In this document: in pieces, positions 1 to 20,742 of the stretch
How the letters are laid out: every line of letters begins with the position of its first letter
Numbering within the stretch: position 1 is the first letter of the stretch
IMG/VR virus record: IMGVR_UViG_3300044675_004223
Location: 1-22,785 of that record
DNA length: 22,785 nucleotides
Direction: 5' to 3' (one strand)
Origin: a virus
The notes under the pieces: model-generated
What the model was told of the DNA's origin: nothing
The model's input: the letters and a program-made list of their open reading frames with translations, nothing else
The model's database searches: none
Translations under genes and position numbers: made by a program

Positions 1-607
1 TATACGGAGTATAATTAATGATATGGTCAATTATTTTATCATACACTTTAATATCATAATTATCATTAAGACGATACGTTGGAAGATTGATAAAATAATA
101 AGTATTATCAAATTTTTTCATTTTTGTATCGTCTAATAATATTTGACGATTTAAAATTAATTTGCGATCAGATGAAACATTAGAGTGATTATTATAAATG
201 ATAGTATTGTTATCATATATTGTATTTTTAAATATGTGTACAATAGTTTTGTCAAATGCAACATTATGCGTTAAACTATTATATTCATTAAAATATAAAT
301 TGTTGTAATTATTTATTCCATATAATTTATTAAAAAAATAATTATATTGAAAGATATTTCGATTATCTGGAAAACCATTTTCTTTGTATATCGAAGACAT
401 TACCTTAAATGATATATTGTCTTCAATATTGTTGAGAGTATAATAATCCGTATTTTGAAAAATATCACAAATATTACTACTAACATAAAATTTACTGTAT
501 GTATTAGTATAGTACAAAAAAAACAACATACCAATTATAGACTCGGTATAACATAGCTGATTCTTAATAGTTTCTGTAAAAATATTATAGTTTGAAGAAG
601 TTAACAT
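1..607 (-). CDS. Unrecognised protein, partial (continues past left edge)
   Basis: Translating the minus strand from an ATG at 607 gives an uninterrupted reading frame of about 202 codons that is still open at base 1, so the 3' end is missing. It begins MLTSSNYNIF and is rich in Asn, Tyr, Ile and Phe, with a short hydrophobic run near residues 24-32 (IIGMLFFLYY) that is too short and weak to call a membrane helix. A later stretch contains YYFINLPTYRL. I recognise no catalytic motif. The start overlaps the end of the radical SAM gene by 23 nt, and the sequence just before the ATG is purine-rich (GGAAAAG about 6 nt upstream), the nearest thing to a ribosome binding site in the left cassette. 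Order, strand and composition put it in the same transcription unit as the radical SAM gene. It could be another glycan-related enzyme, but that is only guilt by association. Confidence 0.7.
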   Translation of the reverse strand, partial: MLTSSNYNIFTETIKNQLCYTESIIGMLFFLYYTNTYSKFYVSSNICDIFQNTDYYTLNNIEDNISFKVMSSIYKENGFPDNRNIFQYNYFFNKLYGINNYNNLYFNEYNSLTHNVAFDKTIVHIFKNTIYDNNTIIYNNHSNVSSDRKLILNRQILLDDTKMKKFDNTYYFINLPTYRLNDNYDIKVYDKIIDHIINYTPY

Positions 608-1478
608 ATTCTTTTCCAACTTTTTCTCCATTTATATTACATTTATTACACACCTTAAGATATCTATTGCCTTCTTTAAGATTTCTTCTATACATATTTA
701 AAAAATCAGATGTCCATATTTCTTCAAGGCTATGAATATTAATGTTCAAATTAGTTTTTGATAGTTTGAACCAATCTTCACAACAAACAATTATATCTCC
801 ATTCCAATCAATAAAAAGTTTATAAAATGGCAAATAGCATTTGTTAGTTTTATATTCTACAATTTTATCTTCATTGAATTTAACTGCCCCTGCTCTATTT
901 GTAAAACCTTTAAAGTTATCGGAATGATAATAACTTTTTCTTAATGTGTATGTATTACTATCATAATTTTTAAATAATTCTAAAAATTTATTTAAACTAT
1001 TATCTCCATCATATACACTAACAATAATATGATTTATTCCACTGTCGTAAATATCTTTAATTAAATTGCTATTAAGTTTATCTCCATTTGTATTAAGTTC
1101 AATTGTTTGAATCTGAGGATTTTCACTACTAATAATGTTGACTAAATTTAAGAAATTTTTAGTTAATAATGGCTCGCCATTTCCAGACCAACCAATTCTA
1201 TTTTTATAATTATTAATCTTAAGTTGTGTAGAAATATTTCTAACAGTTTCTTCAGATATATGAAGATTTTGATTTGGATATACTGAGGCGTCGCTTCTGG
1301 GACAAAAATGACATGTTCTATTACACAATTCTGTGGGGTTAATTGTGATTGATTGTAGCGCATTTAGCGGAAGCAATTCAAAATTTTCAGAATATTGTGT
1401 TTGCTTTTTACGCAATTCTATAATATCATTTTTATTTTCTGCTATCATTATAGTATATATATTATATGAAAATATCAA
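585..1478 (-). CDS. Radical SAM enzyme with SPASM-like C-terminus
   Basis: The N-terminal half carries the radical SAM cluster motif CNRTCHFC (Cys52, Cys56, Cys59), which holds the 4Fe-4S cluster that cleaves S-adenosylmethionine. It is followed by the SAM-binding loop GNGEP at 99-103, a variant of the usual GGEP. The C-terminal region has CYLPFYKLFIDWNGD, then CC (Cys232, Cys233) and CNKC (Cys277, Cys280). This is the pattern of a short SPASM domain holding an auxiliary Fe-S cluster, as in enzymes that modify peptides or sugars. The substrate cannot be read from the sequence. At 297 aa it is compact but appears complete. The longest frame starts at 1478 and overlaps the divergent plus-strand oxygenase gene by 13 nt. 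A second Met at residue 11 (start at 1448, MIAENKND) removes that overlap and may be the true start. No Shine-Dalgarno is seen at either. Neighbouring oxygenase and glycosyltransferase genes suggest a modification pathway. Confidence 0.88.
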   Translation of the reverse strand: MIFSYNIYTIMIAENKNDIIELRKKQTQYSENFELLPLNALQSITINPTELCNRTCHFCPRSDASVYPNQNLHISEETVRNISTQLKINNYKNRIGWSGNGEPLLTKNFLNLVNIISSENPQIQTIELNTNGDKLNSNLIKDIYDSGINHIIVSVYDGDNSLNKFLELFKNYDSNTYTLRKSYYHSDNFKGFTNRAGAVKFNEDKIVEYKTNKCYLPFYKLFIDWNGDIIVCCEDWFKLSKTNLNINIHSLEEIWTSDFLNMYRRNLKEGNRYLKVCNKCNINGEKVGKEYVNFFKL

Positions 1479-2050
1479 ATATTATATGTGATAATTATCC
1501 ATTTAATCATTACTCATTTTCTGATGTTTTTTGTGAAAATGAATTACAACAAATTGAGGATATAGATTTATTTAAACATTCAGCAAAATTAAATGGTGAA
1601 CGAGCATCAAATACTAATAGATTTTTTGCAAATGAAGAAAATAGAAAAACTCATAATGTCATAGATCGCATTGTAAACTATTTTTCTAATATCGAAACAA
1701 TATCACATTTTGAAAACGAATCTGGTAGGAAAATTTCTGGTAATTATTTGCGAATTGAATTTATTGCAGATACTGAATCATCATGGTTAAGACCGCATGT
1801 TGATATAGATGAAAAGATAATGTCAATGATGATATATTTAAATACTACCGATGAAAATCACAATATTGGTACATCAATATATGATAACAACAAAAAATTA
1901 GTAAAAACTGTTCCTTATTTACATAACACTGGGTTTTATTTTTATCCTAGTCACAATACCTGGCACGGTTTAGAGCCAATAAAAATAAAAACTAGTAGAA
2001 AAGCAATAATGATAAATTATTGTACTTTTAAAACGGAGTTTAAATTATAA
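1466..2050 (+). CDS. 2-oxoglutarate/Fe(II)-dependent oxygenase
   Basis: This 194-aa protein has the facial triad of the 2OG-Fe(II) oxygenase superfamily: HVD at 111-113 (His111, Asp113), a distal His167 in TWHGLEP, and Arg178 in SRKAIMINY, which would bind the 2-oxoglutarate carboxylate. The strand context (YLRIEFI before and MMIYLN after the HxD motif) fits the prolyl-4-hydroxylase-like double-stranded beta-helix. Such enzymes hydroxylate proteins or small molecules, and they are common in marine T4-like phages, often beside structural genes, with mostly unknown substrates. It is the only plus-strand gene in the window. Its 3' end overlaps the convergent 309-aa gene by 11 nt, and its 5' end abuts or overlaps the divergent radical SAM gene. 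Its promoter must therefore lie in or beside the roughly 17-nt A/T tract before the ATG, or transcription must come through from the left. No Shine-Dalgarno is visible. Confidence 0.88.
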   Translation: MKISNIICDNYPFNHYSFSDVFCENELQQIEDIDLFKHSAKLNGERASNTNRFFANEENRKTHNVIDRIVNYFSNIETISHFENESGRKISGNYLRIEFIADTESSWLRPHVDIDEKIMSMMIYLNTTDENHNIGTSIYDNNKKLVKTVPYLHNTGFYFYPSHNTWHGLEPIKIKTSRKAIMINYCTFKTEFKL

Positions 2051-2969
2051 CAATATTATATTTAAAATAATTTACTAACGTATCAAATGTCGGCCCTTGC
2101 ATTATTCCAGGTTGCAATAATTTAATTGTATTAAAAATATTTCTAACTTCTGGAAATTCGCCTACTAAATTATCAAAAGATTGAAAATTAGTAAAACTAC
2201 AATTTATCATATCATAATAGGTATCATTAGAAGAACCTATCGTTTTAGAATAGTTTGTTCTACAATATCGAGGACGGGATTCATATGTTAAATTTTCAAG
2301 CTTATTAATACTATTATATTTAGTAGTAAAATGCTCTAATATTTCATGATTTCCTGACACAAAAAATAAACGAGAAAATGGGTGCTGTCTAAGTTTATTT
2401 TCTATCATATAATCCCAGAAAGCATATGCAAGTTGTTTGTTTTCATGGATGCTTATAAGATTAAACGATAAAATATTATCATTAATTTTATCAAATAATA
2501 TATTTGGATTACTGTCTATAACTAACTTTACTGGAGATATATTGTGCAATTCAGTACTACTGTATGTATTATATACTAATACATTAGGTTTGTGTAATGG
2601 AATATTTTCAATAAATTTTCGAGCATGACGGCGATCAGCTTGAGTCCAGTCTGCGTCATAAAAATGAGTATCACTTAAATTTAAATCTAGTAAAAATTGT
2701 TTTTTTATTAAACATTTAAGTTTAGCAGAGAAAATTATAGGACCCAATTCTAAATAATTTTCTTTTAAAATAAATTGTCGATAATTATCATCTATCACTA
2801 TAAATTGAGCAATAGTATCAAATTTTTTTAATATCTCTAAATGTGTTTCTGGTATAAAAAATGTTAAACTAAAATTATTTTTTATACAATAATCGTTTAA
2901 AATTAATAAATTGGCTAAATTTAAACTTAACCCAAGAGGTTTAGTAAATATGATATTATGATAACTCAT
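2040..2969 (-). CDS. Putative glycosyltransferase, weakly fucosyltransferase-like
   Basis: A 309-aa protein in a glycan-type neighbourhood. The C-terminal half has an order of elements that resembles GT-B fucosyltransferases of the NodZ/O-FucT/GT11 type. A beta strand with ISIHEN (around 173-178) stands where those enzymes have a H-x-R motif. It is followed by HPFSRLFFVSGNHEILEHF (196-214), like the FFLATDD-type strand, and then YYDMINCSFTNF (251-262), like the D-x-L-x-L-S-x-C segment. The key Arg of the HxR motif is not present, so activity or even family membership is uncertain. No signal peptide or membrane segment is seen. The start overlaps the GT29-like gene by 14 nt, implying translational coupling; the end overlaps the convergent oxygenase gene by 11 nt. 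It could instead be an unrelated enzyme or a degenerate transferase. Confidence 0.5.
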   Translation of the reverse strand: MSYHNIIFTKPLGLSLNLANLLILNDYCIKNNFSLTFFIPETHLEILKKFDTIAQFIVIDDNYRQFILKENYLELGPIIFSAKLKCLIKKQFLLDLNLSDTHFYDADWTQADRRHARKFIENIPLHKPNVLVYNTYSSTELHNISPVKLVIDSNPNILFDKINDNILSFNLISIHENKQLAYAFWDYMIENKLRQHPFSRLFFVSGNHEILEHFTTKYNSINKLENLTYESRPRYCRTNYSKTIGSSNDTYYDMINCSFTNFQSFDNLVGEFPEVRNIFNTIKLLQPGIMQGPTFDTLVNYFKYNIVII

Positions 2970-3537
2970 AGATTTTATTATTAATAATCAATTTTTTTAC
3001 ACATAAATTTTCATATATGTATGGATGACAATTTCCAATATTTCTATTGTGATCAGGATTAAAATAATAACCAGATTTAAAAAAATCAAACCCGTGTATA
3101 AAAATTTTTGATTGTGGAAATAATTTTAATACCAAAAATATTGTTCTAAACCCAAGTGAAAAATTATTATTACACAAATCTATACTTTGTGATAAATTAG
3201 TTTTAAAAAAATTCGTTATCTCAATATCATCATTTCTTGTATGCGTATAGATAATATTTTCTTTATTTATATCAATTGGCACAATTATTCTAGTATTATC
3301 ATGTAAATCATAGTGATTTACCAAAATTAGTTTTTTATTCTTATCATTCTCCCTAATATTATAGTATATTGTTGATAAAATATCAGTTTTATTTCCAATA
3401 TATTCCTCAAAACCATCAATATTATATTTTCCAATTCTTATTACAGTACCAAATTGATCTATTTTATTTCCTAATTTTTTTTTTATTATTTCGCAAGAAT
3501 TACCTATTATTAAAATATCTTTAGAATTATCATTCAT
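2956..3537 (-). CDS. GT29-family (sialyltransferase-like) glycosyltransferase
   Basis: This 193-aa protein shows, in order, the hallmarks of family 29 glycosyltransferases. An L-motif-like nucleotide-sugar region (8-53) opens with ILIIGNS and continues through FGTVIRIGKY to GFEEYIGNKTDI. An S-motif-like region (126-153) contains FSLGFRTIFLVLKLFP and KIFIHGFDFF. A VS-motif-like H-x4-E follows at His171 to Glu176 (HPYIYE), where the His is the expected catalytic base. Known family members transfer sialic acid from CMP-sialic acid, but bacterial and viral relatives may use other donors, so the donor is not proven. There is no signal anchor, unlike Golgi enzymes, so it should act in the host cytoplasm. 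It is shorter than animal enzymes but covers the catalytic core. Its ATG overlaps the stop of the 197-aa gene upstream in a TAATG junction, so the two are probably translated together; it overlaps the next gene by 14 nt. Confidence 0.75.
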   Translation of the reverse strand: MNDNSKDILIIGNSCEIIKKKLGNKIDQFGTVIRIGKYNIDGFEEYIGNKTDILSTIYYNIRENDKNKKLILVNHYDLHDNTRIIVPIDINKENIIYTHTRNDDIEITNFFKTNLSQSIDLCNNNFSLGFRTIFLVLKLFPQSKIFIHGFDFFKSGYYFNPDHNRNIGNCHPYIYENLCVKKLIINNKIYELS

Positions 3538-4130
3538 TAAAAGGCATTAAATAATTTTTGAAACGGAGAAGGGTTTAATAATGTAGGCCATTTTGTCATC
3601 ATGCTTTCTACTGTTTTAGGCATACATTGTGGTTGAAGGAACTCTTCAACATTAGTTTGTAAATCAGTTTTAGTTGAATTAATTTCTGAAATAATAGTCG
3701 CATCAGTTTCAGCAAAGATTAATTCTTCTAATGTGGTAATCGCTTTTTTATACTCAACTTCGATTAAATTTTTATATGAATCCAATAGTGTGTTAAATTC
3801 AACTTCGTTTATGCTTTTAACATTATTTAACTTTAATAATTTTACTAGTTTTAAATCATAATATGGTTGAATTATGCTTTGTAGTTTAAATAAATAAGAT
3901 TTTTCAGACTGTGTTAATTTATCATCATTTTTGATAGAAGTTAAAATCTTTAAAGTCCGATCATATGATTCATATGTAAATTTACTAATAGAATATACCT
4001 CATTTTTCGAAACAGTCATTTCTGAATCAGTTAAAATGTCTATAAAAACATAATTTTCAAGATTTTCTGTTATAGTTCTACCACGATATAAAATATCTCC
4101 ATTTTCGTTATTGATTTCTATGAAGTGCAT
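3537..4130 (-). CDS. Hypothetical protein directly downstream of the tail fibre
   Basis: A 197-aa protein that I do not recognise. Residues 1-60 look like a small beta domain (MHFIEINNENGDILYRGRTI); the middle, about 60-165, is predicted by eye to be mainly helical with alternating charged and hydrophobic residues; and the end contains CMPKTVESMMTKWPTLLNPS followed by a short hydrophobic tail. It starts 12 nt after the fibre gene ends and shares a TAATG stop/start with the GT29-like gene. Position directly after a fibre gene is typical of fibre-assembly chaperones or of proteins that bind the fibre tip, but no sequence motif supports either. No Shine-Dalgarno precedes the ATG. The base composition shifts to very A+T-rich from here leftward. 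Confidence 0.8.
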   Translation of the reverse strand: MHFIEINNENGDILYRGRTITENLENYVFIDILTDSEMTVSKNEVYSISKFTYESYDRTLKILTSIKNDDKLTQSEKSYLFKLQSIIQPYYDLKLVKLLKLNNVKSINEVEFNTLLDSYKNLIEVEYKKAITTLEELIFAETDATIISEINSTKTDLQTNVEEFLQPQCMPKTVESMMTKWPTLLNPSPFQKLFNAF

Positions 4131-4142
4131 AATATGTATTAA

Positions 4143-7100
4143 TTAAAAGGTGGATGAGTTTTGCTTGCTTTTTCCATGTAGAAATTGTGGCGTGGACATG
4201 GGATTTTTTGTTTTTCCACTGTGTAAATCTCGTATATAAATTAACCAAGTAGGCCCCCCAGGATAGTCAGCGGCATAATAGCCAGTATCTAGATTTGAAA
4301 GAAGTCGCGTCCTCACAGTATCATTTCCGGTGGGATACATTTCTTTTGAACCTACCCAAGCCCCGTTCCAACCAAATATTTCAACTTGAATAGCATAGTT
4401 TGTGCCATTCGAAAGAAAACCTGCAGCAGCTAAATTTGTTAATTGGATGTCAACATAACCGTCGTTACCAACCATATAGTTGGCTCTAGAGTTGCCACCA
4501 AAAGCTGATTCATTGACTGTCCACATTGTTCCAGTAGGCAAGAAAAATCTATTTGGATAATTGTTTGCATAACTAGCAGTAGCAGCGTTACCTGTACACG
4601 ACCCAGATGAGCCAGTAACATTACCAGTAACATTACCAGTCACATTGCCTACAACATTTCCATTCCAACCAGTGCTTCTAAATGTTCCAACTGTTACAGC
4701 ATTACAGCGCACATTCATTATACCATCAGACGCCCAGGTAAAACCTGTGTCTTGTGCACCATCAGAATTAAACATAATGCCGGCATCAGAGAGACGAATA
4801 ACACTACTAAATGTTTTTATTCCTCCAATAGTTTGAGCTCCAGTTGTATACACTCCACTTGTTACTGACCCAGCAGAAGTTGCATAATTGACATTAAAGT
4901 TTGATGGGTCGTATACATAATGATCAACACCATCATCTCCTCCCCATAACCATTTTGGTTGTCCAGCTTTTCCAGACCAATTAAATGTCATAGCAGTTCC
5001 ATTGCCACCTCCACGAGATAGTGTTGATGCCTTTGTTGCCAATGTGGCGCTAGCGGCGTTACCAGTGCACGATCCAGAAGAACCAGATACATTTCCAGAC
5101 AAGTTTCCAATAAACGAGGTCGCGACTACAGTTCCGTCGACTTCTAGTTTACGTGTTGGGTTTGGCACGCCAATTCCAATATTACCATTTTCTAATATTC
5201 TAAATTGAGTAGTAGTATCAATTCCAGGATTCGTTTGAATAGTACTACTTTGTATTTCAAAATATCTTTTATTTGTCCTAGACCCATATATAGACCAATA
5301 CGCTCCAACCTCAGTGTCTTGAAAGTGAATTTGATTTTCTCCAATAGAAACACTTCTATTTTGTGTTGTACCAGAAGATACTGCCAATGGAAAATTTGGA
5401 GAAGTTATATTAATTCCAACTTTATTTGCAAAGTTCCATGTAGGACCAAGTAAACTTAATTTTGCTGGTGTAATTGCGCCATTTGCAACTGTTGTAGCAG
5501 AAGCAGCCGTTCCGCTTATACTAATGCCCCAAGTTCCTTCTGCTCCGCCACCAGTTTTTGTCGGGGCGTTTGCTGCTTGTATCTCAGAACTTAATTTAGA
5601 AATTACAAATGCAGTAGTTGCAATTTGTGTGTCGTTGCTATTTACGCCAGGCTCTGGAACTTTTGGGGTTCCTGTAAAGGTTGGACTTGCAAGCGGCGCA
5701 CCTCCAAGAGCAGACAGCGCCATTGCTGCGGTAGTTGCTCCAGTTCCTCCCTTTGAGATTGGAAGTGTGCTGTTTATAGTGTCAGCAATTGCAGCTTCAG
5801 TAATACGTCCAGTTATTAGTCCAGTAGTTGAATTAATGCTTAAACGAGGAGTGGTTATAGATCCAGCTGCGTTGTGTATATAAAAATCTCCGACAGAATC
5901 CCCTTTACTACTTTGACCAAAATACCAATCTCCAGTTTGTATTACTGCTCTACGATTTGCAGTACTAATTTGCGGTATTACTATTTTTTTATCTGCAGCA
6001 AGTGTGAGATTCCCTTCCACCTTTAATGATTTTTCAGAACCATCAAACGTTGCAACTATTCCTTTTCGGCCATCATAGATAATTGTGTCTATTGCAGTTG
6101 CAGTGTCTGCAGTTTTTCCAGAATGTGCTAGTTTAAGTGTACCATTTGATAATACAGTATCGCCAGTTATTTTTATATTTGGAGTCTCTAAAACAATACT
6201 GGTGTCTGCGGTACCAGAGGTTGTCGCCTTTCCGGTCACATCTCCAGTTAATGGTCCAGAAAACGCAGTTGCTGTAACTGTGCCGCTAACATGTAACCGC
6301 GAACTTGGAATATCATTTATACCTAGGCCAATACCAATATTTCCAGTGTCTCCTCTTACAACAAGTCTATTAGTACTATTAGTTCTTAAAATTATATTAC
6401 CAGTAGCTTTATTTTCAAGTGTAAAATTTGATCCAGTTCCAGAATTTGAAATTCCAGCATGGCCACTTAGTCCAGATGCTTTATATATATGAAGACCATC
6501 AGTATTATACGTTGCAGTATTTGATGTCGGCGTCCAATTTCCATTATGACTGCGCAATACGATGTTTGTGCTGTCATCGGCAGTGCGATTTCCGCCAACA
6601 ATTAAATAATAATCTTCAGGTATGCTAGTGCCTAGTTTAAAATATGTTTGTTTTGGTGCATAATCACCAACAGCATTTATGAGTTGAATTGCAGAATCAC
6701 TACTTGGTATATTAGTACTAACAAATCCACCCGTAACTTCTAATGTACCAGGAATCGTAACTTTTCCATCTTTATTAATGTTTAATCTGAGGGTGTCGTT
6801 AATTTTAAAATCAATCGAGCCATTTTCTCCCTGTGAAAATACAGTTTTTCCAGCACCAAAGTTTGAAAATGTTAAATTACCACTAGAATCGCGTATAATT
6901 GTTGATGTAGGATCAGTACTAGAACCTGTTCCAATAGAAGAGGCTGTATATAGCTTTATTGCACTATTCCCAGATGCAATTCGTCCAGCACCAACATCTA
7001 CAATTGCTTCAGTCGCTCCAATTCCATGTCCAGCAACAATATTAGAATTAGCTCTAAGAGTAGATGTAAATAATGACTCTCCAACTACAGTAAGTTCATC

Positions 7101-7841
7101 TGTAGATTTTGGTAAATAATTAAATGCGCCGCCAACAACTATTGTATCATTATTAAATATTTGTAGTGGAATAATATCTGTGTTAGACACTGCAAGCGTT
7201 CCACGTCTAACATATAATTTACTAGCACCACTTTCTATATTCCACGATGCTGACCCTGAAGACGTTGAAGTTAATCTATAATACGGAGTAGCATCACTCA
7301 ACAATACATTTTTTGCACGCAGACTGTTAGTAACGTTTAATCCATTGCCATCTATATTTGCAGATTCTATTGAATTAACTAAAAATGATATTTTATTAGC
7401 AGTGTCAACAGCTAATCTAATGGCTGCGCTCTTATTATAAATTGTTAATTCACTATTTAAACCACTACCACGAGTAATAGATGCTGTGTCTGTTCCTACA
7501 CCACTGCTTGCAGCAGTTCTAAAAATTAAAGCTGATGCTCCATCACTAATGCGTGTGTGTCCAATGTATGCATTTATATTTCCTCCCCTCGCATATCCAA
7601 ATCGAGTATCGTTGCCATTTGTATTAAAAGTTCCATCTAAATCCCAATATGGACCACCTTGAGACAATTTTGGTGGCGTAATGGCCTTATCTGCTATATA
7701 TCGCGTAATTAAACCATCATTTATAACTTTGATAGTACCATTTGTTTTTTTACGCCAAGTATTAAATGTATCAATTGATGTTACTCCATCAGCAACAATA
7801 TTAATAAATGGCGTGTGTTGATCGGTATCAGAGATTGGCAT
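4143..7841 (-). CDS. Tail fibre / adhesin protein
   Basis: A 1232-aa fibrous protein, probably a trimeric receptor-binding fibre attached to the baseplate. The N-terminus (about 1-60) has FNTWRKKTNGTIKVIND followed by ITPPKLSQGGPYWDLDG, a type of opening common to fibres of marine T4-like phages and probably the attachment part. The body is low-complexity, Ser/Thr/Gly/Asn-rich beta repeats. It includes two copies of a NIGIG...LHVSGTV/KLEVDGTV block (about 500 and 888), a tail-collar-type segment ISKGGTGATTAAMALSALGG (696-715) leading to TQIATTAFV, a second TPAKLSLLGPTWNF block (about 791), and two SSGSCTGNAA segments (about 918 and 1079). The last 135 residues (from about 1098) are non-repetitive and probably form the distal tip. 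I see no S74-type chaperone domain with its catalytic Ser/Lys. A TATAAATA late box lies 6 nt before the ATG; there is no Shine-Dalgarno. It could be a side fibre or a long-fibre equivalent. Confidence 0.85.
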   Translation of the reverse strand: MPISDTDQHTPFINIVADGVTSIDTFNTWRKKTNGTIKVINDGLITRYIADKAITPPKLSQGGPYWDLDGTFNTNGNDTRFGYARGGNINAYIGHTRISDGASALIFRTAASSGVGTDTASITRGSGLNSELTIYNKSAAIRLAVDTANKISFLVNSIESANIDGNGLNVTNSLRAKNVLLSDATPYYRLTSTSSGSASWNIESGASKLYVRRGTLAVSNTDIIPLQIFNNDTIVVGGAFNYLPKSTDELTVVGESLFTSTLRANSNIVAGHGIGATEAIVDVGAGRIASGNSAIKLYTASSIGTGSSTDPTSTIIRDSSGNLTFSNFGAGKTVFSQGENGSIDFKINDTLRLNINKDGKVTIPGTLEVTGGFVSTNIPSSDSAIQLINAVGDYAPKQTYFKLGTSIPEDYYLIVGGNRTADDSTNIVLRSHNGNWTPTSNTATYNTDGLHIYKASGLSGHAGISNSGTGSNFTLENKATGNIILRTNSTNRLVVRGDTGNIGIGLGINDIPSSRLHVSGTVTATAFSGPLTGDVTGKATTSGTADTSIVLETPNIKITGDTVLSNGTLKLAHSGKTADTATAIDTIIYDGRKGIVATFDGSEKSLKVEGNLTLAADKKIVIPQISTANRRAVIQTGDWYFGQSSKGDSVGDFYIHNAAGSITTPRLSINSTTGLITGRITEAAIADTINSTLPISKGGTGATTAAMALSALGGAPLASPTFTGTPKVPEPGVNSNDTQIATTAFVISKLSSEIQAANAPTKTGGGAEGTWGISISGTAASATTVANGAITPAKLSLLGPTWNFANKVGINITSPNFPLAVSSGTTQNRSVSIGENQIHFQDTEVGAYWSIYGSRTNKRYFEIQSSTIQTNPGIDTTTQFRILENGNIGIGVPNPTRKLEVDGTVVATSFIGNLSGNVSGSSGSCTGNAASATLATKASTLSRGGGNGTAMTFNWSGKAGQPKWLWGGDDGVDHYVYDPSNFNVNYATSAGSVTSGVYTTGAQTIGGIKTFSSVIRLSDAGIMFNSDGAQDTGFTWASDGIMNVRCNAVTVGTFRSTGWNGNVVGNVTGNVTGNVTGSSGSCTGNAATASYANNYPNRFFLPTGTMWTVNESAFGGNSRANYMVGNDGYVDIQLTNLAAAGFLSNGTNYAIQVEIFGWNGAWVGSKEMYPTGNDTVRTRLLSNLDTGYYAADYPGGPTWLIYIRDLHSGKTKNPMSTPQFLHGKSKQNSSTF
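4612..4659 (-). repeat. 12-bp tandem repeat (about 4 copies) inside fibre gene
   Basis: On the plus strand, two identical 12-mers (ccagtaacatta) are followed by two diverged copies (ccagtcacattg, cctacaacattt). They encode repeated GNVT/GNVV units near residue 1062-1077 of the fibre. In-frame copy changes here would lengthen or shorten the fibre shaft just before the last SSGSCTGNAA segment and the tip. Confidence 0.8.
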
Positions 7842-7847
7842 ATACGA

Positions 7848-7855
7848 TATTTATA
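7848..7855 (-). promoter_or_regulatory. Candidate T4-type late promoter box for the fibre gene
   Basis: The minus strand reads TATAAATA, identical to the T4 late-promoter -10 element recognised by the gp55 sigma factor with gp33 and the sliding clamp. It overlaps the TAA stop of the 73-aa gene and ends 6 nt before the fibre ATG. With T4 spacing the transcript would start at about 7842, one base before the start codon. The assignment rests on an exact match and its placement; start-site data would be needed to confirm it. Confidence 0.55.
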
Positions 7856-8072
7856 ATAATTTTTTAAGGTCGTCAATTTGAGATTGCAATGATTTACATG
7901 TTTCTTTTAATTCTGATAATTCATTTTGAAATGCGACTCGTTCTTCTTGCATTCTTTTTTGACGCATTCTACGACGAATAGCATGTTGCTGTGCAGTCTT
8001 ATCAATATTTATTAATGCGCCAGTGTGTAAATCACGCTCAAATTTTGGATTATCAATTACTTTGGCTCTCAT
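7851..8072 (-). CDS. Small coiled-coil protein
   Basis: A 73-aa protein. The N-terminal part has FERDLHTGALINID, a motif I associate from memory with small proteins of unknown function found in T4-like phages (typically L-x-R-D-x-x-T-G-A-I-x-N). A strongly basic patch follows (RRRMRQKRMQEER, 33-45), and residues 46-73 show heptad spacing of Leu and Ile (FQNELSEL...SQIDDLKKLL) that predicts a coiled coil. It lies between the large DUF4815-type gene (5-nt gap) and the fibre gene (9-nt gap) and is surely co-transcribed with the virion genes. A structural or assembly adaptor role is plausible but unproven. No Shine-Dalgarno is visible. Confidence 0.8.
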   Translation of the reverse strand: MRAKVIDNPKFERDLHTGALINIDKTAQQHAIRRRMRQKRMQEERVAFQNELSELKETCKSLQSQIDDLKKLL

Positions 8073-8077
8073 AATAT

Positions 8078-11000
8078 TTAAACCGTTGCTATAGCTCTAA
8101 AATCTTTAACTGTTGGTATTTCAACAATATTATTAGACGTTAAAACCATCTTTATTTGAAATGTTCCAAATAGAGATGCTGGATCATATGTATAATGAAC
8201 TTCATTGTACTTTGTATTATCAGAATTTACTGATATAGTTTGTTTAGCATTATTTGGTGTTAATAACGTCCATGCATCATCATATATATTTGTGTCATCA
8301 CCAGCATATGTTAATGTTCTAATATACACTCGTATATCAGATGTTCCAGATGGTCGATTTGCAGCAATATAGATATCAATTCTGTCTGCTCCAAAGTCTA
8401 ATGTAACCGGGCGTGTTATATATCGCGCAAGAGCTTTACCACCTTTAGCTAAAAGTTCAGTATCAGACCCTCCAGTAAATAGATCAGTTGTACTATTAAT
8501 TATTTGTTGAACTGCAATTAATGAGTTTCTAGTTATATCAATAACAGGTGATATTGATGAATCTTTAGTAGTAATTGTAGTAGTTAAACTGCATGGCGCG
8601 CCATTGCCAAATATATTATTATTTGTAGTAACCAAACCAGTTGGTATAACAGTGTCTTCATTTGTAGTAAGAATGAGTGGTTGCGTTGTTTGGTTATTAA
8701 TTACCAACTCATTTTTTAATGTAGTTTGATCAAACGTTAATGCATTTTGAGCACAATTGATCAATGAAAAACTTCTAGTATAGAGTGCCACTGATGCTGT
8801 AGCAGTAGTTCCACCAGATCCAGTCGGTGGAGGAGCTATAGTTATACTTGGTGTTGATATATATCCTGCCCCGCGATCAGTAAACACTATTTTTGTAACT
8901 TTGCCAGTCACAGTATCAATTTGTGCAGTTGCAGTTGCTTGACGAGAAGCAAATGGTATATTAGATGTCGGTGGAGCAGCTATAGTTACAAGCGGTGCTG
9001 AGGTATATTTTGAACCGCCATTTGTAATAGTAACTTTATCAATTGACGTTGGAATGACTCCATTAAATTTAGTAATGCCAGCAGAAGTTGTAAATTTTGC
9101 TCTTCGAATAGTAAATTTTAAATCTTTAGTTTGGTGTGCAGTCCATGTAGCAGCATTAGAACTTGTAAAAAATACACCAAGATATTCTTGTTTTGTGTAT
9201 TGCAAACCAGTCGTAACGTCTCGTTTATTTGGACCAAGTTCTGCTATCCAATTACGATATTCTGGGTCCGGAGACTCAATGACAAATGCATATTCACCAT
9301 CAGCTTGTAGATATACTGGATTTTTAAATGTAAATGTTGTAGCGGCTGATGCGTTTGAACTAACATTGACCCTAGAGGCTGGGACTGATACTCTTGAATA
9401 TGGTACAATTTTTTGTGTTGGATATCCATTTTCAGTTGGCACAACATAGATACTAACTGGCGCGTATGTACTTTTATTTGAGAAATACAAATCAATTGAT
9501 GTCAAGAATAATCCTTCTTTGTATGTGCGAGAGTCAATTATAAATGACTGCGCAAGTGGATCATACCAATTACCAAATGTAGTAACAGTATTTGTTGTAG
9601 TAGTTGTTCTGTTTTCTGTTACTGGTGTAACTGTAAATTCGGGAGTAGTGACTGACAGTATAGTTTCTTGTTTTGTCTGCAATAATCCACTTGCAGAATA
9701 TGCACTCATTCCATATGTTACTGCACTCTCAGTATTTCTTTCAGAAGCAGTGAGCTTAAATTCTTTTTCACCTGTTCTAAATCTTAAATATTCATTATTT
9801 GGCACTATAAATTGCCCCCAAACTTCGCCTTCATCATTTGATTGAAGTTGAGTTCCAAATGTTTGAAATCCTTGAGCAAGTAATGTGGAATTTGGAGTTG
9901 GAAATTTATCTGGTGTAATATTATTTACAATAAATGGTGGTGAAGGAACTCCATTTGGAAATACACCTGATGTCCAGGCTGTTTCATTTGTTATTGGAGC
10001 TACATAGGCATTTACATTAATGCCATCAAAATATGCATACAATTTTGTATTTGGTTTAAACGAGTGTCCTCTAAAATAGACACGACGTCCTCTCATAAAC
10101 GGTATAATATTAATGTCTACGACATACTCACCCAAACTTTTATCTACTGTAGTACTTCCAAGGGTAGTAAATGTTCCAGTACGCTGAAGATTTGATGTAG
10201 TTTGAACTTCAGATACAGTTTTATCTCTTACACCTTGTGAACTTTTTTCAGCTCGTTTAGTAGTAGTTGAACTTAATGTTTTAGATGTACTTGATGTAAC
10301 TTTCCAATCACCCCAATCATAACCAAGCAAATCTGGCATTGCTTCGGTTAACTCTTGTGCTGCAACAAATGCGCTATCATCCTTAACAATTCTGTCTGGT
10401 AGTGTTTCAGTGTCTTTCCAGTTATCACTTGATGGAAATAATTCTATTGTTCCAACAGTCTGAGCATAAACATATGGTTGAACACTTATATCATCAATTG
10501 CAACAAGTTGTTCAAATAGAGTTTCTTCTGTATAGTTCAATGTTATTATGTCTTTATGGACTTTTATATTGCTGCTATTAGCGTTTCCACTATACTCGAG
10601 ATCAAACATGTGAGTACGAAATCTAGGGCGCAATATGCCATTAACTTTATCAGTACTGCATTGATATTCTTTAGAAGACGAGTCTCCCATACTATGATTT
10701 AAGAAACTATCAACAATAATTCCATTTTTTTCTCTTTCATTATCATCAACATCATATATAGATTTTTCTGATGCAGATCTTTCTAATAGAGATAATGATG
10801 TATAATATTCTAGATTACCAATTCGCTTGTCTAGATTAGCAATATCACGCATTGTATATCTGCGATTGTCTACATAAGTAACATTAATTTTACTTGGATC
10901 AGCTGTGTATGCTGGAACATCTAATATATACAGACACATAGCATTTGCAGGTGTCGGCGGTTCTACAGGTTGTAATCCAGGTATGCCGTTAATTACACTA

Positions 11001-13534
11001 AATGCATTATTTGAATTTACTACAACCTTATCAATTCTAGGAAGATAATATCTAGCACTCGCTCTAAATGTTGAATTTGGATTTGGTAATAATCTATTAG
11101 ACACCGTTACGCCATTTAATAAATCTGGTCTAAAATCTAAAGTGTCGCGTAAACTTATGTTATTAACAGTTGGTATATATTGACGAGCGACGCCAGAATA
11201 TGAATTTGGAGAAAAATATCGTAATGCTCCTCCTCCACTTCTACTAAAATATCTGTATGTAATCGCAAATGTACCACTTAATTCACCAGTACCAGTATAT
11301 TGAATTTTACTATTGGTATAATGAGTATCACGACGTCCAGTGTCTGAAATTGTAAACATTGTTGTAACGTCATAATTTACACCAGAACGCGTGTTAATAA
11401 CTGATATTATTTCAACGATATCAGTTATTGGTAAAGTAAATATATTATTAACGGCGTTAGAAAAATCTAAATTTGCAGTTGTAGTAGTTAATATTTTTCT
11501 AGCAGCTGGGGTGTTTGTTTCAACTGCTGCTATTACTGAATATGCCTGTCCACTAGTTAAACCTGTAATTGTAGCACTTTTTCCATCAGACGAAAGCGTA
11601 ATTGGTGTAGTGATTCTACTTCCATTCACATAAACAATAAATGATGCTGCATCGTCAAATGTTTCATTTAATTCACTGCCTACAGAAATAGAAAGAGTCG
11701 TTCCAGATGTTGTGCCATTATAATATCGATATGCGCCAACTGTTGCTCCTGTTACGCCAGTAGTAGGATCACATTCTTCATATGGCAGTGCATATATTAA
11801 AGTATTATTTGATATTTCACTTAAACCAACGGTAGTATCAATATTAAATGTAAAGTCTCCAACTTTAATACTTTGTATATTAGCAGTTGTTTTACCACTA
11901 TTCAATTGTATATTATAAACATACAATTGAAAATTATTTCCTGGCAAAGCTTCAAATGATTTAACATAACACGAGCCTATTACACTTCCTCCGCCGTTAA
12001 TAGCATCTCGTAATTCATATATTCTAGACAGGGTACTAATTGGCGGTAGAGCAGACCCATACATTGTACCAATAAAATAATTACCGGAACTTAAATTTAA
12101 TGACAGCGGAACTGTTTCACGTGTTCGTGATTTTGGCGTTTCAATATTATATGATGAATGCAAATGAACGCGATATCCATCTACATATCCAGCACTTGGC
12201 TCTAGTGTAGTTACAAATGATCCCTTTGCTTTGTTGATAGCAGTTAATTTGTCTGCATCAGTTGAACCTGTGCCATAATAAATTTCATAACCAGGTATTA
12301 AATCTAGATCGTCATATGTGTACAGACCCTTTATATGAGCAACTTCAGTAACAACTGCACCAATTACTGCAGATGATAGAGCACTTGTAGCTATAAATTC
12401 TGTGCCAACTTTTACCAATGCTGCATTTGGTACTCCTGCAGCTAACCATTGTGCAGTGTTTGATCCAGTCCCAAGATTTTCAATACGATAACGATTGCCT
12501 GCAGTCATTAAACGACCTGGCAATTTTTGACCATTATACAAATCAGTGACTTTAATTGGAAATGGATTTACTGTATAGTTACCAGATTCCTCTTGTGTTC
12601 GCAACGCAAGTGTTTTATCAATTTGGGTATACAAATATTCTGGACTATTTGGATTAATTGATTCTGATAGTCTTGAATTTTGTACTTCTCCAATTTTTAC
12701 ATATTGAATTGTATTATCACGATTATTCCAATCTGTTGTAGTAATCCAATTTAATTGTAAATCAATTTGATAGCGATCTGCGCCAGGAGCAGTATAGTTT
12801 AAACTACCAGCACTGTTGTCTACTAAAGTTTCATCTTCAGTATAAGAAATTATATTTTCATACACTCGATATGAAATAACGCCTGTTAAAACTTCAGATT
12901 CTGCTGAGTGATCAACAAATAAATTTTGAAGTGGAAGCGCAACAAATGAACCATTTACATAAAATATACCAGAATCAGTTGATATTATTGACGCATAACC
13001 ATTTACGCTATCATCAGTTAATATGCCGGTTACAGAATAGCCAGCCAATTCTGGTGCTTTTTCAACATTTATTTCAAATTCAAAACTTGTTGTAATATTA
13101 TATTCAAATCGCGTGAGATCATTATCACCAGTGTTTAAATATTTTACATAAAATCTTACTTTTTCAGGCTCACCTGTTTCTTCTTCAATATCCTTATAGC
13201 CAAGTACTTTTGCAATTAAATTATTGCTTTTTATAGAAGTTATATTTTCTAATATTGTAGTTTTAGGCAAATTTTCATCTAGTGTTAATGTAAAATCTAT
13301 GCTGTCTACAATAGGAACAAAGTTAACCTTACAACCCAATACTGCACGATCTTCACTGTATATGCTACTGCCCAAACGATTAATTTGGTCTTGCAACATA
13401 CTTTGCAATTGGTTTAATTCTCTTACCTGTACGCTATAACCAGGTTTAAAAAGAATTTTTAGATAATTTTTATCACTTACTCGATTTAGAGTGTAATCAT
13501 CATAATAATCAGTGTTGTATGTCGTAATTGGCAT
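8078..13534 (-). CDS. Large DUF4815-type baseplate/tail structural protein (gp9/gp10 position)
   Basis: An 1818-aa virion protein. The N-terminus (about 5-75) with YYDDYTLNRVSDKNYLKILF then PGYSVQVRELNQLQSMLQDQ is characteristic of DUF4815-containing proteins of marine T4-like phages. Further conserved-looking segments are SLRDTLDFRPDLL (about 794-806), YDWGDWKVTSS (1072-1082), and EYVVDINIIPFMRGRRVYF then KPNTKLYAYFDG (1136-1171), which match the usual body of these proteins. Residues about 1340-1480 form a jelly-roll-like region with PVYLQADGEYAFVIES. Residues about 1500-1585 hold two NGGSKYTSAP/RGAGYISTP repeats. A fibronectin-type stretch may lie near 610-675. In T4 this map position (after gene 8) holds genes 9 and 10, which connect the wedge to long and short fibres, so an equivalent role is likely. 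It is very large for such a protein. No Shine-Dalgarno precedes the ATG; a TATAAATT box is 8 nt upstream. Confidence 0.88.
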   Translation of the reverse strand: MPITTYNTDYYDDYTLNRVSDKNYLKILFKPGYSVQVRELNQLQSMLQDQINRLGSSIYSEDRAVLGCKVNFVPIVDSIDFTLTLDENLPKTTILENITSIKSNNLIAKVLGYKDIEEETGEPEKVRFYVKYLNTGDNDLTRFEYNITTSFEFEINVEKAPELAGYSVTGILTDDSVNGYASIISTDSGIFYVNGSFVALPLQNLFVDHSAESEVLTGVISYRVYENIISYTEDETLVDNSAGSLNYTAPGADRYQIDLQLNWITTTDWNNRDNTIQYVKIGEVQNSRLSESINPNSPEYLYTQIDKTLALRTQEESGNYTVNPFPIKVTDLYNGQKLPGRLMTAGNRYRIENLGTGSNTAQWLAAGVPNAALVKVGTEFIATSALSSAVIGAVVTEVAHIKGLYTYDDLDLIPGYEIYYGTGSTDADKLTAINKAKGSFVTTLEPSAGYVDGYRVHLHSSYNIETPKSRTRETVPLSLNLSSGNYFIGTMYGSALPPISTLSRIYELRDAINGGGSVIGSCYVKSFEALPGNNFQLYVYNIQLNSGKTTANIQSIKVGDFTFNIDTTVGLSEISNNTLIYALPYEECDPTTGVTGATVGAYRYYNGTTSGTTLSISVGSELNETFDDAASFIVYVNGSRITTPITLSSDGKSATITGLTSGQAYSVIAAVETNTPAARKILTTTTANLDFSNAVNNIFTLPITDIVEIISVINTRSGVNYDVTTMFTISDTGRRDTHYTNSKIQYTGTGELSGTFAITYRYFSRSGGGALRYFSPNSYSGVARQYIPTVNNISLRDTLDFRPDLLNGVTVSNRLLPNPNSTFRASARYYLPRIDKVVVNSNNAFSVINGIPGLQPVEPPTPANAMCLYILDVPAYTADPSKINVTYVDNRRYTMRDIANLDKRIGNLEYYTSLSLLERSASEKSIYDVDDNEREKNGIIVDSFLNHSMGDSSSKEYQCSTDKVNGILRPRFRTHMFDLEYSGNANSSNIKVHKDIITLNYTEETLFEQLVAIDDISVQPYVYAQTVGTIELFPSSDNWKDTETLPDRIVKDDSAFVAAQELTEAMPDLLGYDWGDWKVTSSTSKTLSSTTTKRAEKSSQGVRDKTVSEVQTTSNLQRTGTFTTLGSTTVDKSLGEYVVDINIIPFMRGRRVYFRGHSFKPNTKLYAYFDGINVNAYVAPITNETAWTSGVFPNGVPSPPFIVNNITPDKFPTPNSTLLAQGFQTFGTQLQSNDEGEVWGQFIVPNNEYLRFRTGEKEFKLTASERNTESAVTYGMSAYSASGLLQTKQETILSVTTPEFTVTPVTENRTTTTTNTVTTFGNWYDPLAQSFIIDSRTYKEGLFLTSIDLYFSNKSTYAPVSIYVVPTENGYPTQKIVPYSRVSVPASRVNVSSNASAATTFTFKNPVYLQADGEYAFVIESPDPEYRNWIAELGPNKRDVTTGLQYTKQEYLGVFFTSSNAATWTAHQTKDLKFTIRRAKFTTSAGITKFNGVIPTSIDKVTITNGGSKYTSAPLVTIAAPPTSNIPFASRQATATAQIDTVTGKVTKIVFTDRGAGYISTPSITIAPPPTGSGGTTATASVALYTRSFSLINCAQNALTFDQTTLKNELVINNQTTQPLILTTNEDTVIPTGLVTTNNNIFGNGAPCSLTTTITTKDSSISPVIDITRNSLIAVQQIINSTTDLFTGGSDTELLAKGGKALARYITRPVTLDFGADRIDIYIAANRPSGTSDIRVYIRTLTYAGDDTNIYDDAWTLLTPNNAKQTISVNSDNTKYNEVHYTYDPASLFGTFQIKMVLTSNNIVEIPTVKDFRAIATV

Positions 13535-13542
13535 TATATTAT

Positions 13543-13550
13543 AATTTATA
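13543..13550 (-). promoter_or_regulatory. Weak candidate late promoter box for the DUF4815-type gene
   Basis: The minus strand reads TATAAATT, one base off the T4 late consensus. It overlaps the gp8 stop codon and ends 8 nt before the next ATG. The placement parallels the two exact boxes at 7848 and 15069, but near matches are common in DNA this A+T-rich. Confidence 0.25.
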
Positions 13551-15063
13551 GTTGAATAATAATTTTAAGTTCTTCAGCTTGCTGTGGTGTTCGAACAATA
13601 GGTTTACGATTTTCTGTAAACACAACTTCTCCAGTGCTATGAGTATATTCGCCAGAATTCAATTCATACTCAAGTTGTTCTGTAACATTACCAACAAGTA
13701 TATAACCAGTTGATGGTATATATCCAAACCCACTGGAATAACATTGATGAAAATATAAACGTTTTTCGTTAGAGTCTAAATCAATTGATACTAAATCGGC
13801 ATAACCAATTATTGGATTTGGTACGGATAAACCAGATTGCACAAGTCTAATTGGTAAACCTGAAATATCAGCAGGCAGACTGTTTATATCTTGATCTATG
13901 ACAAAATAACGAAGAGCTCTTAATGTATTTGGAGGAGATTGTCCTAAAATGCTGTCCCAACTTGGGTTTCTAACAACTGAAATTTGACGATATGGAGTAA
14001 AGAAAGTATCATCAGTATTATCTTCTAATTTTGAGTATAGACCCATATACCATCCAGGAAAATCTTTGCTCGGTTGATAACCAAATCCATCATATGGAGA
14101 AATATGCGGAACAATTAATGCGCCACTTCCACCACCATTAACAATTTGAATACTCGCGCTAATAATACGGCTATTATTAGAATCGGATAATAGTGTTGCT
14201 ATAGTTTGCTGACTGCCAAAAGTTAAATCCGTAATAACACCATTTGTAGTTACACCATTTACGGTTACATTTGTAACTGTTGGTATTAATTGAAAATTAC
14301 TAGCTAATGTATACACAGTTTCATCAGCAGTATTTGTTGAATTACGACGGCGAATACTAATAAACAATGATGGCGGACTGGTTATACTATATCCACTTCC
14401 TCCATTAACTATTGTAAATCCGTAAATTTTACCACCAAAATTATTTCTACACAGAGTTATTGTGCTCGGTTCAGCACCACGCTGAACTAAATTTTGTTTA
14501 TGAATTTGTGTAAAACTACTGCTATTAACGGTTTCATCAAGATTTATATAGTCTTGAATATACGCCCACGTATATCCATCAGCAGTATTGGTTTGCGCAC
14601 CATATGTGCTAAGAGTTGGTGCCACAGTACTTGGCGCGAGGTTTCCATTGACATCTTTACCAGCTCTTATGCACAAATAAATTGGCTTATTTGTAGCAGA
14701 TTCGTTTATTACATAGCATGGCAGCGCTTCGTCAGAATCACTATAAAAACATGTTTCATCATACGGGTTGTATGCTTTATATTTGTTTCCAGATTTCCAT
14801 GCAACCCGTGGTATTGCAGCACTAATATCACCTGGTTTAATTTTAATTAGAGATGTAAGATTGTGTAATACTTCAAGATCATCTGCCGGAGTCCCCTTTG
14901 GAATTGGTACGCTAAATGTAGTTGAACTCTCTATAGATCCGCTAGAATTTGGCTCCCACGGATTAGATTTGCCAATTCCTATATAATAAGGAGTAGTTTG
15001 CATGTCTGAGTCAAGTAGATCACGCATTTTTCTTCTAAATGTTTCAGTAATGATTGCTGCCAT
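13546..15063 (-). CDS. 8: Baseplate wedge protein gp8
   Basis: A 505-aa homologue of T4 gp8 (334 aa), a dimeric component of the baseplate wedge that binds gp7 and gp6. Matching segments in the same order are YYIGIGKSNPWEP (26-38; T4 has YITFGRSEPW), AAIPRVAW (82-89; T4 VIPRRDW), ADGYTWAYI (161-169; T4 GDGYVWEYL), YRQISVVRNP (358-367; T4 FRQISIITNP) and TGEVVFTENRKPIV at the end (T4 SGEMIYMENRPPII). The extra length is partly an insertion of about 120 residues (roughly 205-325) containing IVNGGSGYSITSPPS and IVNGGGSG, a repeat type also found in the neighbouring DUF4815-type protein, and partly an extended region around 380-460. It lies 11 nt upstream of the next gene and 28 nt downstream of gp7, with an exact late-promoter box 5 nt before its ATG and no Shine-Dalgarno. 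Confidence 0.93.
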   Translation of the reverse strand: MAAIITETFRRKMRDLLDSDMQTTPYYIGIGKSNPWEPNSSGSIESSTTFSVPIPKGTPADDLEVLHNLTSLIKIKPGDISAAIPRVAWKSGNKYKAYNPYDETCFYSDSDEALPCYVINESATNKPIYLCIRAGKDVNGNLAPSTVAPTLSTYGAQTNTADGYTWAYIQDYINLDETVNSSSFTQIHKQNLVQRGAEPSTITLCRNNFGGKIYGFTIVNGGSGYSITSPPSLFISIRRRNSTNTADETVYTLASNFQLIPTVTNVTVNGVTTNGVITDLTFGSQQTIATLLSDSNNSRIISASIQIVNGGGSGALIVPHISPYDGFGYQPSKDFPGWYMGLYSKLEDNTDDTFFTPYRQISVVRNPSWDSILGQSPPNTLRALRYFVIDQDINSLPADISGLPIRLVQSGLSVPNPIIGYADLVSIDLDSNEKRLYFHQCYSSGFGYIPSTGYILVGNVTEQLEYELNSGEYTHSTGEVVFTENRKPIVRTPQQAEELKIIIQL

Positions 15064-15068
15064 GGTAT

Positions 15069-15076
15069 TATTTATA
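15069..15076 (-). promoter_or_regulatory. Candidate T4-type late promoter box for gp8
   Basis: The minus strand reads TATAAATA, an exact match to the T4 late-promoter element, in the 28-nt gap between gp7 and gp8. It ends 5 nt before the gp8 ATG. With T4 spacing the transcript would begin at the A of the start codon, giving a leaderless mRNA. This gap also contains an A8 tract upstream of the box on the same strand. Confidence 0.55.
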
Positions 15077-15091
15077 TATTTTTTTTAATAT

Positions 15092-20737: not shown

Positions 20738-20742
20738 AATAA

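Follow-up and report, generated by a model that had tools for sequence, protein, structure and literature searches.

A candidate exchangeable glycan cassette behind the tail-fibre gene of T4-like viruses

The stretch of viral DNA analysed here, called the window below, is IMG/VR record IMGVR_UViG_3300044675_004223, positions 1 to 22,785, and the subject is the gene cassette in its region 1-4130, next to a tail-fibre-like gene. The cassette contains a BtrN-like radical S-adenosylmethionine (SAM) enzyme (rSAM1), a 2-oxoglutarate (2OG) oxygenase, a GT29 glycosyltransferase, a candidate GT-B-like glycosyltransferase (T), a truncated gene (A) and a gene named U. In related viruses these soluble enzymes are passed on together, immediately downstream of a fibre or tail gene and U. 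We read it as an exchangeable glycan cassette of T4-like viruses that would make and attach an unusual sugar, with the fibre as the favoured acceptor, and give this reading a probability of about 0.6.

Linkage and exchange of the gene set

The IMG/VR database was scanned with single proteins and alignments, and all open reading frames (ORFs) of the resulting loci, numbered with the prefix L, were then profile-searched. Orthologues of rSAM1 were called close at 56% identity or above, and lineages were separated at less than 95% nucleotide identity over rSAM1. The search started from cassette genes and returned mostly fragments that may all go back to a common ancestral locus; within these bounds U, GT29, T, 2OG and a further glycosyltransferase of family GT8 were present in 18/18 contigs with a close rSAM1 orthologue (14 lineages, or 15 counting the window). 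The 2OG gene was reversed in every one of the 18. The sequence of the window stops before the expected position of GT8. U sits after a fibre or tail gene in all 15 lineages, this gene being of several different types, and the flanking virion genes differ among the linked loci while the cassette set is retained. Three lineages are rearranged (GT29 after rSAM1, aminotransferase inserted, T duplicated) and no core member is missing from them. The set was absent around radical SAM homologues of at most 41% and GT8 homologues below 48%. A preliminary description of the window had named conserved co-occurrence as the observation that would support a pathway; the co-occurrence found, despite differing flanks and fibre types, speaks for a module.

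The cassette also has its own history. Virion genes of the window are nearer to those of L009 (64% and 56-59%) than to those of L003 (27-39% and 41%), whereas rSAM1 and 2OG are nearer to L003 (85/86%) than to L009 (62/69%), suggesting that the two were transferred together from phage to phage. The constant core of the cassette is formed by rSAM1, 2OG and GT8, and its variable part by T, A, U and GT29. Ratios of nonsynonymous to synonymous substitution (dN/dS) were 0.06-0.2 for rSAM1, 2OG and GT29 and 0.25-0.53 for T, A and U, and all six genes were therefore considered real and maintained. A bacterial origin of the cassette was rejected, as nine alphaproteobacterial 2OG relatives (28-39%) had no matching neighbours according to the reference set.

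The slot behind the fibre can hold other genes. In L048 (contig 3300024248_000398, 8154-20052) a different sugar cassette follows fibre-like and U-like genes, with GT8, two more transferases, an epimerase, an aminotransferase, a PIG-L deacetylase, a DegT aminotransferase and an RmlD-like reductase, together with two radical SAM genes, one of them BtrN-like. This content is plain sugar biosynthesis and supports a glycan role for the slot. A 369-aa ORF of L048 looked amidinotransferase-like by eye and had no Pfam match.

The six ORFs that the preliminary description had placed in 1-4130 were recovered at the same coordinates, in agreement with Pfam matches and dN/dS, and a G+C content of 23.8% in this region versus 34.6% in the virion genes (4143-22638) bears out its remark that the cassette is more A+T-rich. 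Its picture of a tight six-gene cassette holds in part: the genes are present, but 2OG lies on the opposite strand, so the six are not one operon, A is cut, and U is probably the fibre's.

Predicted enzymes and their sugar

Both rSAM1, by PF04055 (1e-11) and the SPASM family PF13186 (5e-10), and the oxygenase, by PF13640 (2OG-FeII_Oxy_3, 7.4e-7), matched Pfam above the cut-offs, and their assignment in the preliminary description stands. The likely start of rSAM1 (287 aa) is the ATG at 1448, while the mechanical ORF begins at TTG 1478. The closest solved protein is BtrN (4m7t), with 3.9e-17 by sequence; the rSAM1 family profile reached BtrN at 1.6e-32 and the runner-up solved protein at 2e-8. 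Two features were used as a test for BtrN, a CxxxCxxC core and four auxiliary-cluster cysteines, and both are present: C42/C46/C49, R185, C204, C222, C267 and C270 are invariant in 10 homologues. The auxiliary cysteines have the same spacing of 18/45/3 in BtrN (169/187/232/235) and in rSAM1 (204/222/267/270), R152 of BtrN aligns with the invariant R185, and the domain layout is shared. BtrN, from butirosin biosynthesis, carries out the two-electron oxidation of an aminocyclitol alcohol (PMC9012708), and rSAM1 is predicted to be a BtrN-type dehydrogenase of a sugar or cyclitol alcohol. The two proteins are distant in sequence, and the substrate of BtrN is an antibiotic aminocyclitol. A role in maturation of ribosomally synthesized and post-translationally modified peptides (RiPPs) was rejected. 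The radical SAM core starts at about residue 34, and the approximately 33 residues ahead of it leave no room for a RiPP recognition element (RRE) domain; maturase models scored far below cut-off on rSAM1, which is nearest to BtrN, and no systematic search for a precursor peptide was made.

The best PDB match of the oxygenase was 9ei6 (9.9e-6), and its HxD...H...R motif (H111, D113, H167, R178) is invariant in 12 sequences of phage and alphaproteobacterial homologues. It stands head to head with rSAM1 (starts at 1466 and 1448), an order kept in all relatives, and the gap between the two genes is 13 to about 90 bp in five relatives examined and filled by an extra gene in some lineages. In the window the 17 bp of 1449-1465 leave no room for separate 2OG and rSAM1 promoters, and a search for a promoter of the reversed 2OG gene found none. 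The extra gene, present in many lineages (L117:9425-9967, L123:8548-9126, L014:9481-10017), lies on the 2OG strand and encodes approximately 180-190 aa; judged by eye, its product looks like a dual-specificity phosphatase whose CX5R loop is degenerate, and it has no Pfam match. In L007 a 2OG fragment (6267-6401), 76-89% identical to intact copies, lies beside a second T and a second radical SAM gene and is read as the remnant of a duplicated T/2OG/rSAM module.

The two transferase-like genes of the preliminary description hold up as well, on different kinds of evidence. GT29 matched PF00777 at 3.2e-9 (37.0 bits; gathering score 23), and its relatives in L009 and in Stenotrophomonas phage DLP_6 also exceed the gathering score. 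Its AlphaFold2 model (predicted local distance difference test, pLDDT, 70) had GT29 structures as all ten of its best PDB matches, the first being ST3Gal1 (2wml; E 1.7e-6, probability 1.00, TMq 0.61), with ST8SiaIII and ST6GalNAc2 also among them. It has the L motif and S- and VS-like motifs in common with these sialyltransferases, and the motifs are kept in eight relatives, but with 193 aa the soluble window protein is compact compared with approximately 270-300 aa in GT29 sialyltransferases. Enzymes of family GT29 use CMP-sugars, and the window protein is predicted to transfer one. T had no Pfam, PHROG or PDB match in sequence and profile searches. Its AlphaFold2 model (pLDDT 72.6, predicted TM-score 0.75) resembled by Foldseek the plant fucosyltransferase FUT1 (5koe, probability 0.98) and NodZ (3siw, probability 0.80), and in a viral library a phage fucosyltransferase (4.7e-4); this is moderate evidence for a GT-B-like glycosyltransferase. 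Gene A, with relatives in L003, L009, L014 and L019, likewise had no Pfam, PHROG or PDB match; its profile matches the T family (hhalign E 6e-7, probability 92), and A is possibly a second, distant GT-B-like member of that family. Distant GT8 relatives (approximately 42-46%) in 11 contigs (L066, L069, L078, L083, L092, L097, L099-L101, L106, L109) have a 2OG homologue some 3-4 kb upstream (117-128 bits), which suggests a wider link between GT8 and 2OG genes.

The full cassette of relatives is larger and includes GT8, a second radical SAM gene (rSAM2), a pyridoxal phosphate (PLP) aminotransferase, KdsB and a HAD phosphatase. The last three occur in L009 and L007, where the aminotransferase is of class I/II (HisC/CobD-like) and KdsB scores 229.9 and 247.7 bits against a subfamily cut-off of 193. 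KdsB makes the CMP-activated form of 3-deoxy-D-manno-oct-2-ulosonic acid (Kdo) and GT29 enzymes use CMP-sugars, which makes the two compatible; the presence of KdsB in these two relatives is indirect support for a CMP-sugar donor. Bacteria are known both to aminate Kdo at C8 and to hydroxylate it with 2OG-dependent enzymes. A literature search on Kdo8N and phage KdoO gave nothing useful. The preliminary description had supposed that the oxidative enzymes prepare residues or sugars for the transferases. Of these two a sugar is likelier and fibre residues are less likely, because rSAM1 is nearest to BtrN and has no room for an RRE, fuller cassettes carry KdsB, HAD and aminotransferase genes, and the variant cassette carries the epimerase, PIG-L, DegT and RmlD-like genes.

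U gave scattered weak matches to Pfam and PHROGs, none of them convincing. U proteins of the 15 lineages are strongly diverged, and nearly all of their invariant residues fall in WP[TS]L[LI]NPSP[FY] near the C-terminus. The strict motif gave 44 ORF hits within cassette loci, against zero in 1.47 Mb of other loci. The U-like gene of a related cassette that lacks GT29 and 2OG orthologues encodes WPAILLPAP instead, which weakened the motif as a candidate acceptor. U is probably a partner of the fibre, not of the enzymes, and possibly a fibre chaperone.

The features of the cassette and its surroundings are listed in Table 1. A gp6 homologue at 20743-22638, with best match in Methylophilales phage Melnitz (Kyanoviridae, 34.8%), marks the window by its sequence as a piece of a T4-like myovirus; the related contigs, themselves fragments, yielded no gp6. 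Between the cassette and gp6, at 15092-20737, an 1881-aa protein contains internal repeats (self-similar stretches in tblastn), which makes it a probable repeat-domain protein of the baseplate or fibre.

Table 1. Positions of the cassette genes and adjoining elements in the window.
Feature	Position	Strand	Basis or remark
Gene A	2-631	-	Cut by contig end; 326-338 aa in relatives
rSAM1, radical SAM / SPASM-twitch, BtrN-like	585-1448	-	PF04055, PF13186, BtrN matches
Gap between divergent rSAM1 and 2OG start codons	1449-1465	.	17 bp
2OG-Fe(II) oxygenase, P4H (prolyl 4-hydroxylase)-like	1466-2050	+	PF13640
T (T309), candidate GT-B-like, 309 aa, probable fucosyltransferase-like fold	2040-2969	-	AlphaFold model
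Compact GT29 (sialyltransferase-type) glycosyltransferase, 193 aa	2956-3537	-	PF00777
U (U197), fibre-associated	3537-4130	-	Adjoins fibre/tail gene in 15/15 lineages
Codons of U C-terminal motif WPTLLNPSPF	3561-3590	-	Conserved block of U
Tail-fibre-like gene, 1232 aa, upstream of cassette	4143-7841	-	phrog_7032 tail fibre, 3.2e-6
TATAAATA, T4 late-promoter consensus	7848-7855	-	14 nt before fibre start

Proposed pathway, acceptor and alternatives

In the proposed pathway HAD and KdsB would supply a CMP-activated ulosonic (Kdo-like) sugar, made by the phage in the fuller copies and otherwise by the host. rSAM1 would oxidise a hydroxyl of this sugar to a carbonyl in the manner of BtrN, the aminotransferase could, as an optional step, aminate that carbonyl, and 2OG would hydroxylate the same sugar. 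GT29 would then transfer the CMP-sugar, and the GT-B and GT8 enzymes would build or extend the remaining glycan. Two further points are less sure: the enzymes on the fibre strand would be made late, together with the fibre, and the acceptor would be the fibre or a tail protein next to it. With variable transferases (T, A, GT29) added to the constant core (rSAM1, 2OG, GT8), the sugar coat of the virion could in this way change, with consequences for adsorption or shielding.

The timing was judged from the T4 late-promoter octamer TATAAATA. Of 36 octamers in eight loci, 14 are placed 9-22 nt ahead of a start codon, versus 0.33 expected; this evidence was weighed lightly, as it is odd for a promoter to stand so close to the ATG and the expected number takes no account of local base composition. 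The octamer precedes the fibre gene and other, mostly virion, genes and no cassette gene, a placement which suggests that the genes on the fibre strand are read together with the fibre and so favours a virion acceptor.

Several points weigh against the pathway or its virion acceptor. We infer every enzymatic step from family membership, and in the SPASM/twitch family sequence clustering predicts function poorly (PMC6231123). The oxygenase has only weak similarity to any solved protein, and confidence is moderate for the T model, whose top PDB matches are mostly GT-B with a best E of 2e-3. KdsB was present in two of the nine records searched, so for the window we infer the CMP-Kdo step, and GT29 could use a CMP-sugar other than CMP-Kdo. 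No late-type octamer precedes the opposite-strand genes (2OG, rSAM2, KdsB, HAD); their expression may be early, as would fit modification of the host.

The most serious alternative is accordingly that the cassette applies the same sugar chemistry to the surface polysaccharide of the host (O-chain or core of lipopolysaccharide, LPS) during infection, for instance against superinfection. CMP-Kdo is a normal LPS precursor, which counts for this possibility together with the absence of late-type octamers at the opposite-strand genes. Authors on cyanophage cell-wall genes (PMC9602691) favour a host target, and so do those on pelagimyophage islands for the GT8 enzymes, where host O-chain modification is preferred (PMC7029224). 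Against it stand the position of the cassette behind a fibre or tail gene in all 15 lineages and the octamers before non-cassette, mostly virion, genes only; late expression would moreover be too late to bring about exclusion. Among the proteins of the cassette loci no flippase, ligase, polymerase or membrane protein was seen, and no cassette protein has a likely membrane segment. We rank a virion acceptor somewhat above the host surface, whose glycan is a strong though less probable rival. A narrower form of the virion reading, slightly more doubtful still, is a dedicated pathway of fibre protein glycosylation in which the BtrN-like enzyme and 2OG make a new CMP-ulosonic sugar that GT29 attaches to the fibre or to the invariant WPTLLNPSP tail of U.

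It is improbable that 2OG and rSAM1 alter residues of a fibre-linked protein (the U motif WPTLLNPSP or the fibre) which the transferases then glycosylate. The P4H-like character of the oxygenase (PF13640 and 9ei6) would suit such protein modification, as would a motif that is nearly the sole conserved part of U in 15 lineages and is found only with the cassette; rSAM1, however, lacks room for an RRE and is nearest to BtrN rather than to peptide maturases, and WPAILLPAP in the related cassette without GT29 and 2OG orthologues indicates that the motif may be a general feature of fibre companions. We give equally little credence to unrelated auxiliary genes, each with its own role, that are held together by shared descent of the slot. 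The contigs are indeed related, and single-enzyme relatives do occur alone (GT8 below 48%, rSAM at most 41%), but rSAM1 and 2OG have an exchange history unlike that of the virion genes, all members are retained in the three lineages with rearranged order, and the genes are under purifying selection.

FolE- and QueE-like (preQ0-type) ORFs, recognised by eye from translations, lie near the cassette in L007, L014 and L117 and suggest deazaguanine DNA modification in these viruses. They are the point in favour of DNA hypermodification, with 2OG hydroxylating a base and the transferases glycosylating it as in phages with TET-like enzymes or in T4, which is very improbable for the cassette as its linkage is to the fibre and not to replication genes, and we know of no GT29, BtrN-like, KdsB, DegT or PIG-L chemistry in DNA modification. 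The TET/JBP type was rejected, since PF13640 alone passes the cut-off for 2OG and no TET/JBP match was obtained.

Known systems and significance

The locus has the marks of a host recognition cluster, a variable island with tail-fibre genes in a T4-like myovirus, as seen in the gp6 homologue, the fibre neighbour and the alternative cassette in the slot. The cluster of pelagimyophages and cyanomyophages (PMC7029224) is similarly a hypervariable island, in which tail-fibre genes accompany glycosyltransferases that are mostly GT8, and radical SAM gene cassettes are gained or lost between relatives. It differs in being a variable mix, and the part of that paper considered names no unit of GT29, 2OG and GT-B, whereas here a fixed set keeps its order and strand in 15 lineages. 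In the T4-like Campylobacter phages CP220/CPt10 (PMC2853527) and WX1 a radical SAM module is likewise exchangeable. In WX1 it lies near tail genes, and its BtrN-like enzyme (32% to rSAM1) has a short class I/II aminotransferase and an amidinotransferase close by; the Campylobacter phage module was read as a boost of host metabolism, and no GT29, 2OG or KdsB is annotated in the WX1 stretch compared. Synechococcus phage S-SCSM2R has GT8-like (45%), KdsB, KdsA and 2OG genes in one cluster and an aminotransferase next to an rSAM gene close to the long tail fibre, but its genes are split over two loci and no GT29 was found among the proteins scanned. In DLP_6, GT8 adjoins GT29.

The preliminary description knew of no phage pathway with this exact set. 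Cassettes of glycosyltransferase and radical SAM genes in the fibre region have been published (PMC7029224, PMC2853527), and what appears undescribed in the literature searched is the constant GT29/GT-B/2OG/BtrN-like/GT8 set with its fixed geometry and link to U. In aquatic T4-like phages the variable regions often carry genes for radical SAM enzymes, 2OG oxygenases and glycosyltransferases, which tend to be classed as auxiliary metabolism. That a constant set is linked to the fibre in 15 lineages, and that another sugar cassette can take its place in the slot, leads to the idea of exchangeable glycan cassettes beside the adhesin. If the host is the acceptor, a surface-remodelling pathway would be identified; if the fibre is, a chemical layer would be added to host recognition. 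With either target there would be a role for the BtrN-like radical SAM genes of phages, seen in Campylobacter phages in 2010 and read there as presumed host-metabolism genes. Should the fibre or U indeed be decorated, this would be, to our knowledge, the first phage virion modified by radical SAM and 2OG chemistry together, and T4-like viruses would have an exchangeable coat system.

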